From a virus: 27,121 bases of DNA. The notes beneath the pieces were generated by a model, which searched no databases, had not been told where the DNA came from, and saw nothing but the letters and a program-made list of their open reading frames with translations. The stretch spans positions 1-27,121 of the IMG/VR virus record IMGVR_UViG_3300008113_001458. The stretch is one strand, 5' to 3'. The position numbers and the translations under genes were made by a program. Within the stretch, counting starts at the first letter, position 1; every line of letters starts with the position of its first letter. Below are positions 2,062 through 19,961 of this stretch, one piece after another.

Positions 2062-2497
2062 TTTAAACCAATGGATTGAAGCACTGGGTGTACCGCAGGA
2101 AAAGCTGGGTGGTCACTCAGTTTGTCCATTTGCGAAACTTGCCAGTCGTTTCACCATGATTCGTGTCAATGGTGAGATTATTCCACCTGTGGATAGGAAC
2201 TTTGACATTATCATCTACCTACTCCCAGCGGAAATTTCCTTTGAGTCCATGAACGATCTCTGTGTGGATCTAAATGCTAAGTACACGGATTTAATATTCC
2301 TACCTGACCATAAGGATCGTCATACCACAATCAATGGCGTCCAGACTAATAATGGTAAGCACAATATTCTTCTATGTCAGCCAAAGCAGAAACTGAAAGA
2401 TGCTCGAGCAGCACTCCGTAAAACAAACTATTATACATATTGGGAAGACAGTTATCTGCGTGAGATACTAGGAGAAGATTATGGCAATCTGGACTGA
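2045..2497 (+). CDS. unknown protein with GHSVCPFAK motif, 150 aa
   Basis: The start is TTG 2045 with GGAG at 2032-2035; no in-frame ATG precedes the conserved-looking N-terminus (DLNQWIEALGV). Residues around 24-31 read GHSVCPFAK, recalling the CPFAK of DUF1415-type proteins, though I cannot confirm a relation. The C-terminal half contains TDLIFLPDHKDRHTTINGVQ and an LCQP motif, then a helical tail. It overlaps speD by 17 bases and the amidinotransferase by 17 bases, so it is co-translated with them and may be a pathway partner. Its single CPFA Cys and nearby His could be functional. Confidence 0.65.
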   Translation: MNEISDLNQWIEALGVPQEKLGGHSVCPFAKLASRFTMIRVNGEIIPPVDRNFDIIIYLLPAEISFESMNDLCVDLNAKYTDLIFLPDHKDRHTTINGVQTNNGKHNILLCQPKQKLKDARAALRKTNYYTYWEDSYLREILGEDYGNLD

Positions 2498-3569
2498 GTG
2501 GGATCCACTAGAAGAAATCATTGTTGGCACCTGTCCACCAGAAAACTTCTATGACAATGTAATTCAAGATGAACGTAGCCTTCCGCTACTTCAAACGATC
2601 CTCCGTGAAACACGTGAGGATCTAGACACACTTTCAGCTTCCCTCGAGAAGATGGGTGTCAAGGTTTACCGACCAAAGAACTTACCCTTTGAACGAGGGA
2701 TTGACATTGCTGGATTTAAAGTTAAGAATCCTGTAGCACCAATTGTTCCACGTGACCAATACCTTGTGTATGGCGAGAAGATTGTTCAGACTTACACATC
2801 GATGCCCGATCGTTGGCTAGAATCACTTGCCTACTATGACATCTTTCGTGAACTGTTTGAACAAGGGTTTGAGTGGAACAGCATGCCACCTCCCCTTCTT
2901 GAGAACTTTCCTGACAATAGCATTTGGTATAGCGACAGCGTTGGTCGTTATCATAATGTAATGAAGGATCGTCTACTCTGGCATACTGCTACAATGTTCA
3001 AGTGTGGTGATGCGTTGATTACTAATACACGTGGTCCAGGAAATGATTTGGGGTTAGAGTGGATGCGTCGTCAATATCCAGAAGCAAGAATCCTACATAA
3101 TAAGGCAACAGTACAAGACGACCTTGGACATATTGACCATGGGTTCTTTATGACAGATGACGAAACTGTATTTGCTGAGAAAGAGTTTTGGGCACCAGCA
3201 TGGCTGACTAAAAACAAAGAAGTTATCTATCTACATGATGTGGTGGACACACCCGACTTCGCTAACTATGACCATGCGTTTACTCAGAGTCAGGGTAAAT
3301 TTTCCTATGACTATTTGAACCAGTGGATGAGCGAGTGGAAGGGTTATGTGCAGGAAGTTGCGTTTGACTTTAATGTGCTGGTTGTAGACAGTAAGAATAT
3401 CTTTATTAGTAACGAGCAACCTAAGTTACAAGAAATGCTAGATAAGCGTGGTATCACTTGCCACGTATCACCAATACGCCACAATCACTTTTGGGATGGT
3501 GGTATTCATTGCCTCACGTTAGATGTAAAGCGTAGAGGAGAAAGAAGGAAGGTAGTAAATGTGGATTGA
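2481..3569 (+). CDS. amidinotransferase (glycine/inosamine amidinotransferase family, pentein fold)
   Basis: Enzymes of this family move the amidino group of arginine onto an acceptor amine, releasing ornithine. The 362-aa length fits. Conserved blocks are visible: WDPLEEIIVG (7-16), a Gly/Asp block CGDALITNTRGPGNDLG (175-191), the catalytic His in GHIDHGF (His217), and the catalytic Cys at 344 in FWDGGIHC. The acceptor cannot be told from the sequence. ATG 2481 has an AGGAGA SD. The gene overlaps both neighbours (17 and 11 bases) and stands between a SpeD-like gene and three oxygenases, which suggests a guanidinylated product that is then hydroxylated. This pathway is inference. Confidence 0.85.
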   Translation: MAIWTEWDPLEEIIVGTCPPENFYDNVIQDERSLPLLQTILRETREDLDTLSASLEKMGVKVYRPKNLPFERGIDIAGFKVKNPVAPIVPRDQYLVYGEKIVQTYTSMPDRWLESLAYYDIFRELFEQGFEWNSMPPPLLENFPDNSIWYSDSVGRYHNVMKDRLLWHTATMFKCGDALITNTRGPGNDLGLEWMRRQYPEARILHNKATVQDDLGHIDHGFFMTDDETVFAEKEFWAPAWLTKNKEVIYLHDVVDTPDFANYDHAFTQSQGKFSYDYLNQWMSEWKGYVQEVAFDFNVLVVDSKNIFISNEQPKLQEMLDKRGITCHVSPIRHNHFWDGGIHCLTLDVKRRGERRKVVNVD

Positions 3570-4263
3570 TTCAGATCGATATAAACACGAAGGTGTTTTA
3601 GAAGAACTTGCCAGTCGACTACGTAGCGACCTTAATGCTCTACGCATTCAAGGACACGATCCTATTAAGACTGCTTGTCAGATTTTAAAGTTTGAGTATC
3701 CTGATGTTTACCCAGAACTTCAGTTTGCGAATAATTCTGCTGAGTATCACCACCCAGAAGCGTGGGAAGATAAACCTAACCCAAGAGAAGTCTGGTACGG
3801 TGAAGCGATTTACCTAGATGGTAAAATTTCAGATCGCTTTAAGGATAACTGGAAAACAACTGCTGAGTATGTTCCACAGATTCCTGGACTGTTACAGATG
3901 ATGGTCAACTTTATTAAACCAGGAGGTGTGCTTCCTGTACATGATGACCGTGGAGGATGGGAACGTATCGATCGTTGGACAGGTAAACTACAACGTGGCT
4001 TTACGGTTTCTATTGGTGTTGACATTCCTTCATCAGATCCAAAGATGTGTGGTCTTGAATTTGATGGCGAGTCAAGAGGACAAGTAAACGGAGGATGGGT
4101 TGTCTTTGAAGGTAGGAACTGTAGACACACAGCATGGAATCTTACTGACCATTGGCGAGTTGCTGCCGTAGTGGATATTCAAGCCAGTGAATTTAATCTA
4201 GAAGGATTCTCTGAACGACTTAATGACATTTGGTCACGAGAGGAAAGTATGTATGTTCGTTGA
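3559..4263 (+). CDS. Asp/Asn beta-hydroxylase-like 2OG-Fe(II) oxygenase, copy 1
   Basis: The fold is the aspartyl/asparaginyl beta-hydroxylase type (PF05118-like). The iron triad is intact: His128-x-Asp130 in LPVHDDRGGW and His190 in RHTAWNL. Arg200 in HWRVAAVVDI is the likely 2-oxoglutarate ligand. The 234-aa protein carries an N-terminal domain beginning MWIDSDRYKH that the next two genes share. The SD is AGGAAGG. It overlaps the amidinotransferase by 11 bases and copy 2 by 11 bases. The substrate is unknown: free amino acid, peptide or guanidino compound are all possible. Confidence 0.8.
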   Translation: MWIDSDRYKHEGVLEELASRLRSDLNALRIQGHDPIKTACQILKFEYPDVYPELQFANNSAEYHHPEAWEDKPNPREVWYGEAIYLDGKISDRFKDNWKTTAEYVPQIPGLLQMMVNFIKPGGVLPVHDDRGGWERIDRWTGKLQRGFTVSIGVDIPSSDPKMCGLEFDGESRGQVNGGWVVFEGRNCRHTAWNLTDHWRVAAVVDIQASEFNLEGFSERLNDIWSREESMYVR

Positions 4264-4858
4264 CGCTAAAAAATATAAGCACTATGATAAATTGGTGCAG
4301 ATGGCAGACGCACTCAAACTAGATTACGATGAGTTTATTAAAGACCACCCAGATCCAAGGAAACACATTTGCGTTTTTCAGTTTGAGTATCCTGAGATTA
4401 CCACTGAAGAAGAAATGGAATATAAGGATGATTGGTGGGCAGTGCCAATCTTCGTTGACGGAAAGATCGATAACAAGATGTATCCTAATCATTGGTTGAG
4501 GACAAAAGAAATTACTTCAACACTTCCAGGTCTATATCAACAAATCATTAACTTTATTCGCCCCAATGGTGGTAAACTGCCATGGCATAATGATTACGGT
4601 TCATGGCAAAGAATCAGTCAATACTTTCCCAACCCCAAAGGTTATACTGCTGCTATTGGTATTGACATGTTAGAACCACAAGATCCTTCTAAGCAGGGTA
4701 TACAATTTGCGCAAGCAACTCGTTCTTATGGCAACAAAGAAATTATTGCTTTTGAGGGTAGAACACAACATCACTATGTTTGGAATTTATCGGATGCTTG
4801 GAGAGTAAGTAGTGTTATTGACTTAGCTGAAACGGAGTGGGAAAATGTGGTTGGGTGA
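4253..4858 (+). CDS. Asp/Asn beta-hydroxylase-like 2OG-Fe(II) oxygenase, copy 2
   Basis: I start it at ATG 4253 (201 aa, MFVDAKKYKHYDK) and not at an upstream in-frame ATG 4223, because this matches the N-termini of copies 1 and 3 and has AGAGGA 9-12 bases ahead. The iron ligands are His112-x-Asp114 (WHNDYGSW) and His174 (QHHYVWNLS), with Arg184 for 2-oxoglutarate. Similarity to copy 1 is visible throughout but moderate, so the duplication is old. The overlap with copy 3 is 14 bases. All catalytic positions are kept, which argues for a separate function and not decay. Confidence 0.8.
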   Translation: MFVDAKKYKHYDKLVQMADALKLDYDEFIKDHPDPRKHICVFQFEYPEITTEEEMEYKDDWWAVPIFVDGKIDNKMYPNHWLRTKEITSTLPGLYQQIINFIRPNGGKLPWHNDYGSWQRISQYFPNPKGYTAAIGIDMLEPQDPSKQGIQFAQATRSYGNKEIIAFEGRTQHHYVWNLSDAWRVSSVIDLAETEWENVVG

Positions 4859-5414
4859 TCCAGTACAATACAAGCACTATGAACAACTTCAGAAGTTGAT
4901 GGGGTGTATGCTTCTTGACTATGCTGAGTGGAAACAGAAATACGACATCGATGCTCAGGGAGTTGATGCTGCTACACGTTATTACATGCCACCAGAAAAC
5001 GCAAGAGGATTTATGGCATTGCCTATTATTGATGCACGTAATGCGCAACAACCATGGGCTACTGGCTGGGAAAGAACAATAGAGCAAGCGTTCAATTGTC
5101 CAGGAATGATTGATATGTGTATCAACTTTATTCGCCCTGGAAAAATGTTACCAGTACACACCGATCAATATGTGTGGGACTGGATATCTAAATCGATGGG
5201 AATGAAAATGGAAGGGTTTACTACTTCCTTTGGAATTCATATTCCTGAACCAGAGAAGCAATGTTTGGTATTTGATGGCGAAGAGAAAGTTTGGAAGACT
5301 GGTGAGTTTAGAACTTTCAATGGGCAATTTACTCAACACTACATGAAGAATCTTGGAAATGATTGGCGTATCACAGGTGTTATGGAAATAGAAAAACAAT
5401 ATTGGAACTTGTAA
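4845..5414 (+). CDS. Asp/Asn beta-hydroxylase-like 2OG-Fe(II) oxygenase, copy 3
   Basis: The 189-aa protein begins MWLGDPVQYKHYEQ like its two neighbours and keeps His105-x-Asp107 (PVHTDQY), His165 (TQHYMKN) and Arg175 (DWRITGV). It is the shortest copy, and its linker before the catalytic core is reduced. The SD is GGAG/GGGA. It closes the cluster: a promoter for the next unit follows 36 bases after its stop. Substrate unknown. Confidence 0.78.
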   Translation: MWLGDPVQYKHYEQLQKLMGCMLLDYAEWKQKYDIDAQGVDAATRYYMPPENARGFMALPIIDARNAQQPWATGWERTIEQAFNCPGMIDMCINFIRPGKMLPVHTDQYVWDWISKSMGMKMEGFTTSFGIHIPEPEKQCLVFDGEEKVWKTGEFRTFNGQFTQHYMKNLGNDWRITGVMEIEKQYWNL

Positions 5415-13102: not shown

Positions 13103-13756
13103 TTGATTACACATATTCGTCATGATATTCCCAAACTTGAACGTATCACCGCTCCCGATGGATCGAGAGTATATGCGACTCCATCGGGTAAATCCTATCC
13201 TTCCGTCACAACCGTCACAGGATTGCTTGGAAAAGCAGCAATCATCGCATGGAGAAAACGAGTCGGAGAAGCCGAAGCAAACAGAATCTCAACAGCAGCA
13301 GCTAACCGAGGAACGAGAATTCACACTCTTTGCGAATCATTTCTCAAGAATGAATCCGTTGAACCCGACATGTTTGACCACCACACGTGGAATTCAATCT
13401 TACCTGAGTTGTCAAAGATTAACAATGTCCACGCACTCGAAACACCACTTTACTCTGACCATCTAGAAGTTGCAGGAACAGTTGACTGTATTGCAGAATA
13501 TGATTCCAAGTTATCTGTGATTGACTTCAAGACATCAAAGAGAGTAAAATCAAGGGACGATATTCATAACTACTTTATGCAGTGTGCTGCATACGCAGTA
13601 GCCTTTGAAGAACGAACAAAAATTCCTGTTGGCCATCTAGTTATTATTATGGCAGTTGATGACCATGAGCCACTTATCTTTAAAGAGAAACGTGACACGT
13701 GGATTAATAAGTTTATTGAAGTAAGAGAGCAATACCGAAGCATTAATGGACGCTAA
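13103..13756 (+). CDS. RecB/MGME1-like PD-(D/E)XK exonuclease
   Basis: The start is TTG 13103, with AGGA at 13094-13097. Motifs in order: RGTRIH (His74), LEVAGTVDCI (Asp128), VIDFKTSKR (Asp141-x-Lys143), and QCAAYA (Gln160, Tyr164), the RecB-type nuclease set. At 217 aa there is no helicase part, so it resembles stand-alone exonucleases of the MGME1/Cas4 kind. Likely roles are DNA end processing or host DNA breakdown. It is the last gene before the noncoding gap of 105 bases that carries the ahp promoter region. Confidence 0.75.
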   Translation: MITHIRHDIPKLERITAPDGSRVYATPSGKSYPSVTTVTGLLGKAAIIAWRKRVGEAEANRISTAAANRGTRIHTLCESFLKNESVEPDMFDHHTWNSILPELSKINNVHALETPLYSDHLEVAGTVDCIAEYDSKLSVIDFKTSKRVKSRDDIHNYFMQCAAYAVAFEERTKIPVGHLVIIMAVDDHEPLIFKEKRDTWINKFIEVREQYRSINGR

Positions 13757-13861: not shown

Positions 13862-14404
13862 ATGAAAACAGTTGGTGATAAATTAGAAGCGTTTGTTGTT
13901 ACTGGTGTCAAACCTGGACAACCAGCAGATGCTTTTTTCGATATTACAGAAAAGTCTTTTGAAGGAAAGTGGAAAGTAATCGTCTATTATCCTAAAGACT
14001 TCACCTTTGTCTGCCCAACAGAAATTGTTGCGTACGATAAATTATTCCAAGATTTTGCCGATCGTGATGCAGTCTTATTGACAGGTAGCACTGACAATGA
14101 GTTCTGTAAAGTGGCATGGCAAAATGCTCACGAAGATCTAAAGAAAATCAAACACATTCAGTTCGCTGACACATCTCGTGATTGGGATAAATCTTTGATT
14201 GAGCAGTTGGGTGTGTTCTATGCACCTGCTGGCGCAGCACTTCGTGCTACTTTTATTGTTGACCCAGAGAATGTTATTCAACACGTTACTGTTAACAACT
14301 TGAATGTTGGTCGCAGCCCAGATGAAACTCTACGTATCCTTGATGCGTTGCAAACTGGTGAACTTTGCGCATGCAACCGTAAAGTTGGTGGAGAGACTTT
14401 GTAA
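13862..14404 (+). CDS. ahpC: AhpC-type 2-Cys peroxiredoxin
   Basis: It reduces peroxides through Cys51 in DFTFVCPTEI. The C-terminus, GELCACNRKVGGETL, contributes Cys169 and Cys171; the CxC pair resembles mycobacterial AhpC, which is recycled by AhpD and not by AhpF. At 180 aa it is nearly full length for this subtype. It opens a compact unit with a class II aldolase-like gene (1-base overlap) and an AhpD-like gene, so the phage appears to carry both peroxidase and its reductant adaptor. Codon use does not obviously differ from the neighbours. Confidence 0.9.
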   Translation: MKTVGDKLEAFVVTGVKPGQPADAFFDITEKSFEGKWKVIVYYPKDFTFVCPTEIVAYDKLFQDFADRDAVLLTGSTDNEFCKVAWQNAHEDLKKIKHIQFADTSRDWDKSLIEQLGVFYAPAGAALRATFIVDPENVIQHVTVNNLNVGRSPDETLRILDALQTGELCACNRKVGGETL

Positions 14405-15060
14405 TGTTAGAAACTATTTGCGATACGATGGTCGAAGCATACCGTCGCAACTGGATTACCAGTCGTGATGGTAATGTTAGTATTCGCCATCACGATCGTG
14501 ATCATTTTTATATTACACCGAGTGGTGTTCGTAAACAAACATTACAACCAGATCAATTTAAGAAAATTAAAATCTGGCGCAGCATTAATAGTGGTGTAGG
14601 AACAGGTGTGTTTAACTATGCTCATGAAGAAATGGACTACACTGAAATTAGTGCCAAATTAAAACCATCTGGCGAAATCCCATTACACTTTGGATTACAA
14701 AAGGAAATGGGACAACACAAAGATGATGTTCGTGTGGTTATGCACTTCCACCCAACATACTGCGTTGCTGCAATGCATCGTGGTATCGAGTTGAGTAGCC
14801 TTGCTAATGACTTCCCAGAACTAAGTCGATACACTAAGGTTGCTGCTAATGTTGGTATTGTTCCACCTATTAGCCAAGAACTTGCTGATCAATGTTTTGA
14901 AAAGTTGAAGTTAGATAAAGAAGGTAATGTTTCTTACGACATCGTCGGAATTAATGGTCATGGAGTAGTTGCTATCGACACTAGTCCATGGAGAGCATTT
15001 GAACATATTGAACGATTGGAGCATATCTGTCAGATCGTTCTTTCATCGGGGACATATTAA
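14404..15060 (+). CDS. class II aldolase/adducin-family protein (MtnB/FucA-like)
   Basis: Class II aldolase blocks are present: SRDGNVSIR (20-28), ITPSGVRK (37-44), PSGEIPLHFG with Glu91 as likely catalytic acid, HFHP giving zinc ligands His114 and His116, and NGHGVVAID giving His186. Known members are sugar-phosphate aldolases, epimerases or methylthioribulose-phosphate dehydratases; the subfamily cannot be told by eye. At 218 aa the length is normal. It overlaps ahpC by the last base and abuts ahpD, so it is co-translated with a peroxide-defence pair. The link between aldolase and peroxide reduction is unexplained. Confidence 0.78.
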   Translation: MLETICDTMVEAYRRNWITSRDGNVSIRHHDRDHFYITPSGVRKQTLQPDQFKKIKIWRSINSGVGTGVFNYAHEEMDYTEISAKLKPSGEIPLHFGLQKEMGQHKDDVRVVMHFHPTYCVAAMHRGIELSSLANDFPELSRYTKVAANVGIVPPISQELADQCFEKLKLDKEGNVSYDIVGINGHGVVAIDTSPWRAFEHIERLEHICQIVLSSGTY

Positions 15061-15474
15061 ATGAGTTTTATTGAATCTGTTAAAGGTGTCTTTTCGTTGG
15101 CTGCGACTGGTAACGGTAAACTATTGGGTGCTCTCTTAGCAGATGCGCCAGTAGATGCAAATGCAGCGATGACTGCTGCCAGTTTAATGGCACAAAATAA
15201 CGTATGGTATCCTTACGTTGAAATGGCAGAAGACCCTGCTCTTGCTGGTCTACCTGCTCAACTTCGCATGAACGCAATCGCAACACACGGTGGTACAACT
15301 AAAGAACGATTTGAGGCATACTCACTTGCTGCTTCTATTGTTGGTAAGTGCCACTTCTGCGTTAAAGCGCATTACGAAGGACTAAAGAAAATGGGTTATA
15401 CTGTTGAGCAACTACGTGACATCGGTCGCATTGCTGCTGTTATGAACAGTATCGCTAAAGTCCTAAATAGTTAA
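15061..15474 (+). CDS. AhpD-like carboxymuconolactone decarboxylase-family protein
   Basis: The redox motif is Cys97-His-Phe-Cys100 in GKCHFCVKAHYEGL, with Glu85 twelve residues before Cys97 and His104 four after Cys100. That spacing matches the Glu118/Cys130/Cys133/His137 active site of mycobacterial AhpD. The protein is 137 aa, shorter than AhpD (about 175), and helical. AhpD recycles oxidised AhpC using lipoamide as electron source. Its position two genes after an AhpC with the matching CxC tail supports this role. The start directly follows the previous stop. The tmRNA gene begins within about 12 bases of its end. Confidence 0.8.
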   Translation: MSFIESVKGVFSLAATGNGKLLGALLADAPVDANAAMTAASLMAQNNVWYPYVEMAEDPALAGLPAQLRMNAIATHGGTTKERFEAYSLAASIVGKCHFCVKAHYEGLKKMGYTVEQLRDIGRIAAVMNSIAKVLNS

Positions 15475-15553
15475 TATTGTTGTAATCCCTTCGAAACGAA
15501 GGCATGTTGGACGGGAGTTCGATTCTCCCCACCTCCACCATAAGGAGATTGAT

Positions 15554-15625
15554 ATGGATGATGACTTGACAAGATTTATAATTGGCTTTGCTATTATAAT
15601 TGTAATTCTATTTGTATTCTTATGA
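15554..15625 (+). CDS. 23-aa hydrophobic peptide inside the tmRNA intervening segment
   Basis: ATG 15554 follows AAGGAG (15542-15547) at ideal distance. The peptide starts MDDDLTRF and continues as one hydrophobic helix to its end (IIGFAIIIVILFVFL), with a stop at 15623-15625, one base before the tmRNA coding piece. It lies exactly between the CCA end and the GGGGGTG start of the permuted tmRNA. An acidic head with a membrane helix is a common shape for small membrane peptides. Translation is not proven, but SD, start and topology fit together. Confidence 0.5.
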   Translation: MDDDLTRFIIGFAIIIVILFVFL

Positions 15626-15711
15626 TGGGGGTGACTAGGTTTCGACAGCGTGAGATAGTAGAGACGGCAACACGGTAGGCGATGACCGTAAATCAAGCAA
15701 AATCAATAACC

Positions 15712-15744
15712 GCAAACGACGAGTTATTTGCTATCGCTGCTTAA
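15712..15744 (+). other. tmRNA proteolysis tag reading frame
   Basis: The resume codon GCA at 15712 begins ANDELFAIAA followed by TAA (15742-15744). With the alanine carried by the tmRNA the full tag is A-ANDELFAIAA, close to the bacterial AANDENYALAA form, ending in the Ala-Ala that ClpXP recognises. Upstream, ACGGT/ACCGT (about 15673-15690) can form the first pseudoknot stem. Confidence 0.88.
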
Positions 15745-15834
15745 AGCGTAGCTGAGGTTTCGCTGACTGTCCTTATCATCCAATCAGTCAGCACTAATTT
15801 ACAAACTTGATTTTTATATCAGAATCAGGTATTA

Positions 15835-15842
15835 TATAAATA
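15835..15842 (+). promoter_or_regulatory. T4-type late promoter, exact TATAAATA
   Basis: TATAAATA matches the T4 late -10 box exactly. Predicted start near 15849. It is the only exact copy between 13757 and 16201 and would serve the gene at 15914. A terminator-like hairpin follows within 10 bases of the predicted start. Confidence 0.5.
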
Positions 15843-15913: not shown

Positions 15914-16189
15914 ATGTCAAATATGACTCCGTTCGAGATTCGCCTTGAACTTCTAAAAATGGCGAAAGACATGCTTGCTGATGATTACTACGGTAAGCGT
16001 GAACAAATTAGCAACGACTGGCAAACGAAAGTCGATACTGCTAAAATCAATGGAGGCACGATTCCTGATCACCCAGGATTCCCTGCTTATCCGTCAGAGG
16101 TCGAAATCATTGCAAAGGCTCAGGTCTTGAATGGCTTCGTTTCCAATATCCCACTAGATACAAAGACTATTAGCAAAAAGTCCACCTGA
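15914..16189 (+). CDS. conserved marine T4-like phage protein, 91 aa
   Basis: The N-terminus, MTPFEIRLELLKMAKDML, with DYYGKRE following, is a signature I know from a small protein found across marine T4-like phages, function unassigned. It is helical and soluble. AAAGG serves as SD. The gene is a monocistronic unit: a late-type box at 15835 lies upstream and a strong hairpin terminator starts 9 bases after its stop. This suggests separate, probably late, high expression. Confidence 0.7.
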   Translation: MSNMTPFEIRLELLKMAKDMLADDYYGKREQISNDWQTKVDTAKINGGTIPDHPGFPAYPSEVEIIAKAQVLNGFVSNIPLDTKTISKKST

Positions 16190-16243: not shown

Positions 16244-16873
16244 TTGCGTAAATCAATTTTTCTAATTTTAGTAGGCATTCTATTCGCTGTAACAACAATC
16301 GTTGTAGCAAACAATAATGCACTATTCCCAATTCGTGTTTCAGCTGACCAACTAACACCATACGCTAAAAAGCAAGTAGAGTGTTTAGCTGATAATATTT
16401 TCTTCGAAGCTGGTTATGAGCCAGTAGAAGGACAAAAGGCAGTGGCAGTTGTTACATTAAACCGTGTTCGTTCTGGCGACTTCGCTAACGATATTTGCGG
16501 TGTAGTAAAAGAAAAGAATCACAGAACATGCCAGTTCTCTTGGTATTGCCAAGATCGTGAGAGGAACATGGCATACAATAAAGAAAAGAATCTGTCGGAT
16601 AGACAAAAAGAAGTATATCAAAATATTTTCTTCTTGGCTTTAGACATCTATGTTAACTCTGATTCATTGAGAGATAATACAGGTGGTGCACTGTATTACC
16701 ACGCAGACTATGTGAACCCGAACTGGCGTCATCTAAATAAAACTGTAAAGATAGGACGTCACATTTTTTATAAACCTGGAGAAAAGTATGCCAAACATGA
16801 TGCAAAAATTGAATCTGGAGTTAAAGAGCGAGAGTTCGTCGCACTCTTTCTTCCCTCTGATGGAAGATATTAA
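16244..16873 (+). CDS. SleB-like cell wall hydrolase with signal peptide
   Basis: I use TTG 16244, with AAGGAG at 16232-16237; the in-frame ATG-like start at 16202 would lie inside the terminator hairpin. The N-terminus (LRKSIFLILVGILFAVTTIVV) is a signal peptide or anchor. The Hydrolase_2 (SleB) domain follows: VECLADNIFFEAGYEPVEGQ with the catalytic Glu, VAVVTLNRVRSGDF, ICGVV, CQFSWYC, then ALYYHADYVNPNW and KIGRHIFYK. The family cuts cortex or peptidoglycan glycan. Most members end near the HIFYK block; this one continues about 28 residues in an 86-base overlap with the protease gene. Confidence 0.78.
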   Translation: MRKSIFLILVGILFAVTTIVVANNNALFPIRVSADQLTPYAKKQVECLADNIFFEAGYEPVEGQKAVAVVTLNRVRSGDFANDICGVVKEKNHRTCQFSWYCQDRERNMAYNKEKNLSDRQKEVYQNIFFLALDIYVNSDSLRDNTGGALYYHADYVNPNWRHLNKTVKIGRHIFYKPGEKYAKHDAKIESGVKEREFVALFLPSDGRY

Positions 16874-17354
16874 TCTAAGCGTTTGTAAACAAGCAGTCGA
16901 GTGGATATTTGAGGCGAACTTTGCTGAAGAAAGACCAGAACTACTAAACCTTTTAATCACAAGTCCAGGTGGTGATCTAACTGCTGCTTTCGCTTTGATT
17001 GATGTAATGCGAGGATCTGCTATCCCAGTAAGAACGATTGGTCTAGGACAAGTTTCTAGTGCAGGTCTTTTGATTTTCACTTCAGGAACTAAAGGTATGC
17101 GTGTATTAACACCAAATACATCAATCCTTTCTCACCAATATTCTTGGGGTGCTTTCGGTAAAGAACATGAACTGTTTGCTACCGTAAAAGAATTTGATTT
17201 GACAACCAAGAGAATGATTGCTCACTACAAAAAGTGTACTGGGCTGACTGAAGACAAAATTAGAGAAACATTGTTACCACCACAAGACATTTGGCTTTCT
17301 GCTGCTGAAGCAAAGGCTCTTGGTCTTGCTGATATGGTTAAAGAATTAAAATGA
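16788..17354 (+). CDS. ClpP-like serine protease
   Basis: The ClpP/SDH-type triad is visible: Ser in GQVSSAGLLIF, His in SILSHQYSW, and Asp in the C-terminal AKALGLAD region. LLITSPGGDLTAAFALIDVM is the family's oxyanion/Gly-rich block. At 188 aa it has normal ClpP length. TGGAG lies 8-12 bases before ATG 16788. It overlaps the SleB frame by 86 bases, and a later Met at about 16860 would remove the overlap but lacks a good SD. Phage ClpP homologues may act as prohead protease or modify host proteolysis; here it follows a tmRNA by 1 kb. Confidence 0.8.
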   Translation: MPNMMQKLNLELKSESSSHSFFPLMEDINLSVCKQAVEWIFEANFAEERPELLNLLITSPGGDLTAAFALIDVMRGSAIPVRTIGLGQVSSAGLLIFTSGTKGMRVLTPNTSILSHQYSWGAFGKEHELFATVKEFDLTTKRMIAHYKKCTGLTEDKIRETLLPPQDIWLSAAEAKALGLADMVKELK

Positions 17355-19468: not shown

Positions 19469-19753
19469 ATGGAACTTTCTGTTTCAGAATATTATGAGAA
19501 GTTTTCCCTGTGCGCTATCGATCGTGACTTGCCAGCACTGTTGCGTATCCGTGGTGCGCTTTTGAAAGAACGCCAAAAGATGGATCGTTGGTTCGACAAG
19601 TATCTTGACATGTTTGATCGCAAAATGGATCCTGCAAAAGTTGACACACCTGAGTGGAAACTTTATAATAAAAAGTCAGAAGAATATAGCGAGTTGAATC
19701 GTTTGATTAAATCCGCTGATGTGTATATTCAGAAGGTAGGTACTAATGTTTGA
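19469..19753 (+). CDS. unknown helical protein, 94 aa
   Basis: ATG 19469 is preceded by GAGGAGAGG, so I prefer it to the in-frame TTG 19463. The protein is basic and almost fully helical, with heptad-like spacing in the stretch LRIRGALLKERQKMDRWFDK and again near SEEYSELNRLIKSADVYI, suggesting a helical hairpin or coiled coil. It overlaps the gp33-like start by 8 bases. No family recognised. Confidence 0.6.
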   Translation: MELSVSEYYEKFSLCAIDRDLPALLRIRGALLKERQKMDRWFDKYLDMFDRKMDPAKVDTPEWKLYNKKSEEYSELNRLIKSADVYIQKVGTNV

Positions 19754-19961
19754 GGATAGTGGTTCATTTTCGTTATACATTGAACAGATAGTGAAAGAAA
19801 AGAAGTGTACTCATCTTGAGGCAGTTCTAAAATATTGTGAAGAGAATTTTATCGATCCGCAAGATATGAAGTCGCTGATTGGTAAATCTCTAAAGCAAAA
19901 AATTGAAGCCAACTTTATTGATATGAACTACTTACCTAAACAGGCGAAACTTGATGTATAG
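19746..19961 (+). CDS. 33: late transcription coactivator, T4 gp33-like
   Basis: T4 gp33 links RNA polymerase to the sliding clamp so that gp55 can use late promoters. Over 71 aa this protein follows the T4 gp33 pattern: YIEQIVKEKKCTHLEAVLKY, CEENFIDPQDMKSLIG, and LKQKIEANFIDMNYLP, matching T4's IEKMVEEFGMSYLEA ... EENSIPE ... IEKIQSEAIDENLL. It is shorter because the T4 N-terminal extension is missing. The C-terminus (KQAKLDV) replaces T4's hydrophobic clamp-binding end. Synteny with gp59 and gp32 downstream supports the call. Confidence 0.78.
   Translation: MFEDSGSFSLYIEQIVKEKKCTHLEAVLKYCEENFIDPQDMKSLIGKSLKQKIEANFIDMNYLPKQAKLDV

Follow-up and report, generated by a model that had tools for sequence, protein, structure and literature searches.

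The window, by which we mean the whole stretch of 27,121 bases analysed here, is a virus record of IMG/VR. It comes from a T4-like phage of bacteria, as already proposed in the preliminary description and as borne out by homologues of gp33, gp59 and gp32; T4-like genes in the window encode PhoH, a PDDEXK exonuclease, a gp33-type coactivator, the gp59 helicase loader and gp32. Among them lies a gene for tmRNA, the RNA that rescues stuck ribosomes. The slot that it occupies is bounded on the 5' side by the PDDEXK exonuclease gene (13103..13756, + strand; phrog_298, E 1.7e-67, and synteny) and on the 3' side by a conserved gene of 91 amino acids (15914..16189, + strand), which is 41-100% identical among relatives and is without Pfam or PHROG match. 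The gp33-type late transcription coactivator is encoded at 19746..19961 (+ strand; phrog_254, E 2.2e-19). The gene order common to the relatives of the window is PDDEXK, tmRNA, the 91-aa gene, a cell wall hydrolase and then gp33, gp59 and gp32.

Concerning the surroundings, a T4-type late promoter consensus, TATAAATA, is found at 15835-15842, between the tmRNA, which it follows directly, and the 91-aa gene. Immediately upstream of the tmRNA (13862-15474) there is a cassette encoding a peroxiredoxin (AhpC/TSA), a class II aldolase and an AhpD-like (CMD) protein, which is rare in relatives, AhpC being present in 9 of 221 loci and the aldolase in one of 221. A ClpP-type protease is encoded 1 kb from the tmRNA (16788-17354; Pfam Clp protease, E 4.5e-29), and ClpP homologues occur in 51 of the 221 loci with permuted phage tmRNAs; since tmRNA tags are among the substrates of ClpXP, the nearby protease and the phage tmRNA may work together. 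Three adjoining genes occupy 3559-5414, the first and third of which match Asp/Arg beta-hydroxylase and the middle one of which looks alike; the gene ahead of this trio (2481-3569) has an uncharacterised PHROG as its sole match.

Our analysis confirmed a circularly permuted (two-piece) tmRNA gene of the betaproteobacterial type at 15478-15792, in which the acceptor half is encoded 5' of the tag-bearing half. ARAGORN calls a permuted tmRNA (tmRNA*) at 15448-15835 with the tag ANDELFAIAA, and the two Rfam models match above threshold, beta_tmRNA (RF01850) with 158 bits (threshold 84, E 3.8e-49) and tmRNA_permuted (RF04321) with 150.4 bits (gathering 47) over 15478-15744; the permuted-order pattern matches once in the window and never in 100 shuffles. 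The acceptor piece (15478..15540, + strand; ARAGORN, RF01850, RF04321 and covariation) carries the 3' half of the tRNA-like domain, the T-arm, one P2 strand and the encoded CCA. The coding piece (15627..15792, + strand, 3' end approximate; ARAGORN and Rfam) carries the mature 5' end GGGGGUG, the other P2 strand, the tag frame with its stop (15712..15744, + strand; ARAGORN) and a post-tag hairpin at 15762-15792. Across 210 distinct phage intervening segments the acceptor-stem halves covary with one clear exception, position 5 showing five pair types (G-C, A-T, C-G and others) and position 6 three (T-A and C-G among them), and G3-U70 is kept; in a relative, L035, a change in the post-tag hairpin is compensated. 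The phage tmRNA is apparently intact, as judged from these sequence features.

The preliminary description had recognised the permuted gene and had proposed ARAGORN and Rfam as the check. Its reading of the bases was correct, namely the acceptor half CTCCACCA ending at 15540, GGGGGTG from 15627, the P2 pairing of CATGTTG with CAGCGTG and the tag frame; its limits, 15486-15800, designate the right locus but leave the 5' end slightly short, as the models start at 15478. The one-piece tmRNA that it had named as an alternative was looked for with ARAGORN, which called neither a one-piece tmRNA nor a tRNA in the window. It had also taken the gene as a hint at the donor lineage: the best Rfam model is indeed betaproteobacterial, but the closest matches in a sample of Burkholderiales reach only 79-83% over about 85-105 bases, too partial to pin the donor. 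Two other candidates were rejected, an Rfam match to SNORD30 at 15554-15616 (24.9 bits, below the gathering value of 40), attributed to chance, and a reverse-strand ORF at 15463-15696, which is mechanical and antisense to the tmRNA.

As a surprise, the presence of a permuted tmRNA in a phage is not supported. PMC9004378 (2022) counts 53 two-piece structures among 133 unique phage tmRNA structures, 50 from marine or aquatic phages, and reports a two-piece tmRNA in phage Melnitz; in IMG/VR, the permuted-order pattern with a gap of 51-111 nt gives at least 120 matches. A permuted tmRNA in a phage is as such known and ordinary, and the new part is a gene inside the gap, the most unusual feature of the locus, which the preliminary description missed. 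A permuted tmRNA with the tag ANDTSFDVRLAA was also noticed at 2473-2893 of the cultured Pseudomonas phage SM1 (L002), where it is absent from the annotation of the record.

The intervening segment (15541..15626, + strand, 86 nt), defined by its position between the pieces and by motif count, is expected to be removed from the mature tmRNA. Its layout is UAAGGAG AUUGAU AUG ... UGA U, so that it ends in UGAU, and GGGGGUG follows. A Shine-Dalgarno sequence, AAGGAG (15542..15547, + strand; from the sequence and from SD+ORF shuffles over relatives), stands 6 nt ahead of an ATG that opens an ORF of 23 codons plus TGA (15554..15625, + strand), MDDDLTRFIIGFAIIIVILFVFL, a predicted single-TM micropeptide supported by a free-standing homologue and by one in the gap of a relative (L208). 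The stop codon lies one base ahead of the mature 5' end of the tmRNA. The ends of the segment can form a terminal stem, with a 5' arm, UAAGGAGA (15541..15548, + strand), which contains the Shine-Dalgarno sequence, and a 3' arm, UAUUCUUA (15615..15622, + strand), which doubles as the last codons of the ORF; the count is 8 pairs, one mismatch being allowed.

The case for this ORF rests on its homologues, since open frames in its size class are no commoner than in shuffles (see below). In three relatives (L145, L182 and L194) a free-standing homologue is encoded directly 5' of the acceptor piece, outside the gap. The L145 copy, MDDDLTRFLIGFIIIVIIIILILS, is identical to the window ORF at 15 of 23 residues, with 9 synonymous codons, and the differences at codon positions 1/2/3 are 9/1/14 (under random substitution, P about 5e-5); in the other frames 6/22 and 4/22 residues are kept. 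The E-value of the homologue search, 2.5e-6, was obtained without composition correction and is hence optimistic for a membrane peptide, so that homology is carried by the shared MDDDLTRF start, the place beside the tmRNA and the codon pattern. The homologue of L208 lies inside the gap and gives codon differences of 8/3/14, with a P of 0.003 in a protein-guided alignment and of 0.05 in a nucleotide-guided one. Related TM micropeptides (MKPYEIIVITLLTILIIVHVLF and others) are found in the gap at the same genomic slot, and those of L152 and L199 differ by mostly synonymous change (5/0/6, P 0.0008). A degenerate-codon scan for the window peptide matched only the two near-identical loci. These comparisons indicate purifying selection on the window ORF at the codon level. 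That a homologue stands free in the same slot speaks for a function of the peptide in its own right, and for a change of place of the small gene or else of the acceptor piece. We also observed that between L196 and the window the acceptor piece is 98% identical and AhpC 95%, against 56% for the gap and 70% for the coding piece, a pattern that would fit a joint exchange of these two parts.

To place the window among other phages, we counted open frames by gap length. The scans did not select for ORFs, some of them required exact motifs, and the cluster counts refer to the matches listed and are not population frequencies; a frame was taken as open when its ATG lay in the first 26 nt and it stayed open to the junction or to within 14 nt of it. 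Open frames were found in 9 of 39 clusters with gaps of 50-80 nt (9.3 in shuffles) and in 5 of 30 with gaps of 81-104 nt, the size class of the window (4.3 in shuffles), and then in 15 of 35 at 105-135 nt, 10 of 16 at 136-166 nt and 8 of 11 at 167-230 nt, versus 2.5, 0.33 and 0.11 in shuffles; a Shine-Dalgarno sequence with an ORF was present in 18 of the 46 long-gap clusters, versus 0.115 in shuffles. From these counts, short gaps seem to be mostly plain hairpins and long gaps mostly genes. In eleven pairs the ORF frame keeps 222 residues versus 164.5 expected, and the other two frames 175 versus 164 and 155 versus 161; some pairs were picked by protein similarity, which favours the ORF frame, and the three-frame comparison on nucleotide alignments is the control. 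Codon-position differences are 10/11/31 between L475 and L482 and 16/3/22 between L364 and L476. For two more gap families, too, free-standing homologues are encoded immediately upstream of a permuted tmRNA (L027 for one; L006, L187 and L136 for the other). In many relatives the frame reads through the junction with no stop inside the gap, and in the longest gaps the ORFs have proper stops.

The gap-encoded proteins, of up to 70 aa, comprise TM peptides and coiled-coil-like, cysteine-rich and small globular proteins; none is above the curated Pfam cut-off or has a PHROG match below E 0.001. For one family of 50 aa a beta-beta-alpha-beta fold is predicted (pLDDT 94), and a structure search with this model returned no significant match and a weak similarity to small uncharacterised phage proteins. 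When an annotated phage collection was searched with four gap proteins, the sole match was Melnitz, for its own ORF family. As to the cysteine-rich ORFs, that of L195 is similar to a short iron-sulphur motif of BFD-like type (Pfam E 0.015, below cut-off) and that of L086 contains CPTC...HKC. Small genes in the gap of phage two-piece tmRNA genes are apparently real, and they seem to be undescribed: no earlier description of protein ORFs in the gap was found in the open-licence literature, and notice elsewhere is possible.

The terminal stem is kept when an ORF is present. In each of the 50 ORF-type gaps the count of terminal pairs is 7 or more, with a mean of 11 versus 3.4 in shuffles, and gaps without a listed ORF have a mean of 11.1 versus 3.1; 189 of 210 phage gaps end in UGAU, opposite ACCA. 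This suggests that the start signals and the last codons of the ORF often form the arms of the stem. In L057 and L100 a compensated change of the stem alters a codon as well. The start region is predicted to be less accessible in the precursor (0.21) than in the nascent RNA, which lacks the 3' arm (0.51). In the window 8 terminal pairs are counted, yet the folded gap is weak, no more stable than shuffles, and the change in accessibility is small (0.45 to 0.35).

In bacteria, the permuted genes examined have hairpin gaps, of 30 nt in two Burkholderiales and of 61-62 nt in two others. A strict pattern of Shine-Dalgarno sequence plus ATG in the gap gave no match in 84,980 prokaryote species genomes, a search that detects only genes with the exact acceptor motif, and a pattern with a gap of 50-110 nt matched 95 contigs, many by chance.

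We consider it quite probable that the locus is a permuted tmRNA gene whose gap is both a processing hairpin and a small protein gene. A single transcript would contain the acceptor piece, the ORF and the coding piece. In the nascent RNA the ribosome-binding site just past CCA would be open, and translation of the ORF could yield a 23-aa single-TM micropeptide; after synthesis of the 3' part, the ends of the gap would pair and stack on the acceptor stem (mean of 11 pairs in the ORF-type set, 8 in the window). Cleavage by RNase P ahead of GGGGGUG and by a 3' endonuclease behind CCA would be expected to follow, leaving pieces that would assemble into a two-piece tmRNA tagging stalled products with ANDELFAIAA. 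The sequences themselves show the tmRNA gene, the ORF families, selection on their codons, the conservation of the stem and the placement of small genes in the gap or just 5' of the acceptor piece. We infer cleavage, timing, translation, membrane location and the role of the peptide, drawing on the established biology of two-piece tmRNAs. More generally, small phage genes may have a niche in the gap of phage two-piece tmRNA genes, where they would probably be translated while the hairpin is still open.

Against this, the gap of the window could be a processing hairpin and nothing more, its ORF having stayed open by chance in AT-rich sequence. At this length the majority of gaps are plain hairpins, with open frames at the shuffled level, and bacterial gaps are plain hairpins; however, the homologue outside any gap with its 9/1/14 pattern, the Shine-Dalgarno sequence at ideal spacing, the stop exactly at the junction, and the L208 homologue together with the related TM peptides of the same slot make this explanation unlikely. 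We would give a similarly low weight to the idea that the ORF is a sensor, in which a cut mini-mRNA ending at or lacking its stop yields a product that is tagged when the tmRNA works and accumulates when it fails, following the ArfA logic described in PMC10107115. The window stop codon one base from the expected cut and the many relatives that read through the junction fit such a sensor, but proper stops end the longest gaps, and a free-standing homologue outside the tmRNA would escape such control. Also rather unlikely, if slightly less so, is a built-in switch or sensor in which the gap ORF cannot be translated when the tmRNA matures, nor the tmRNA mature when the ORF is translated: ribosomes on the ORF would hold the processing hairpin open, and the cut ORF would be a mini-mRNA, ending at or lacking a stop, targeted by its own tmRNA.

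Other explanations concern the tmRNA itself. It could mainly compete with the host tmRNA and titrate SmpB rather than tag, as phage DS6A has a tmRNA consisting of the tRNA-like domain only and such molecules inhibit tmRNA (PMC4131195, PMC11915505); the intact tag frame ANDELFAIAA and helper hairpins would be needless for a decoy, and we hold this to be quite improbable. The gene might also be seen as a relic in decay, or as a fragment of a host gene at an integration site, as ssrA fragments are known in prophages (quoted in PMC9004378). Both halves, however, are complete, score high and covary, and the synteny of the gene extends over many T4-like phages, so that this view is largely refuted and is the least credible of all.

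If the reading of the gap as hairpin and gene is true, the spacer that is discarded from the product of a ribosome-rescue RNA gene would serve phages as coding space. Start signals and C-terminal codons would at the same time be the arms of the processing stem, and ribosome rescue would be coupled to the expression of a nested gene. It would also add a set of unannotated small phage proteins and bear on the origin and drifting apart of two-piece tmRNA genes.

Among known systems, the closest is phage Melnitz, which shares the permuted order, the intact tag, the T4-like phage background and a similar slot between PDDEXK and gp33, and which has an ORF with Shine-Dalgarno sequence and ATG in its gap too. 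This ORF is unrelated in sequence to that of the window and lies unannotated under the SsrA feature; the Melnitz record annotates SsrA alone there, and the Melnitz passages of PMC9004378 make no mention of the ORF. That paper judges the Melnitz tmRNA alphaproteobacterial and followed by a glutamine riboswitch, an element not found in the window. The bacterial beta-type permuted tmRNA (RF01850) resembles ours in layout, acceptor stem, P2, tag type and the UUUUGAU hairpin at the gap end, but in the order sampled its gaps are hairpins of 30-62 nt without a gene. In the 2025 tmRNA database paper, a tRNA gene and a repetitive element are noted for two intervening sequences, and no protein ORF.

The Coxiella 23S rRNA intervening sequence with its S23p ORF (PMC4990558) is another case of a structural RNA precursor from which a segment bearing a small ORF is removed. 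That system is bacterial and concerns rRNA, RNase III and a segment of 428 nt, with an ORF thought to be unmade and decaying, whereas here we deal with a phage, a tmRNA and several unrelated ORF families under purifying selection. Nested genes are likewise found in one-piece tmRNA genes with group I introns carrying homing endonuclease genes, and as a tRNA gene in one permuted gap (PMC11915505); in those cases the nesting involves a self-splicing intron or a tRNA, and here a putative protein gene between the two halves of a permuted tmRNA gene.
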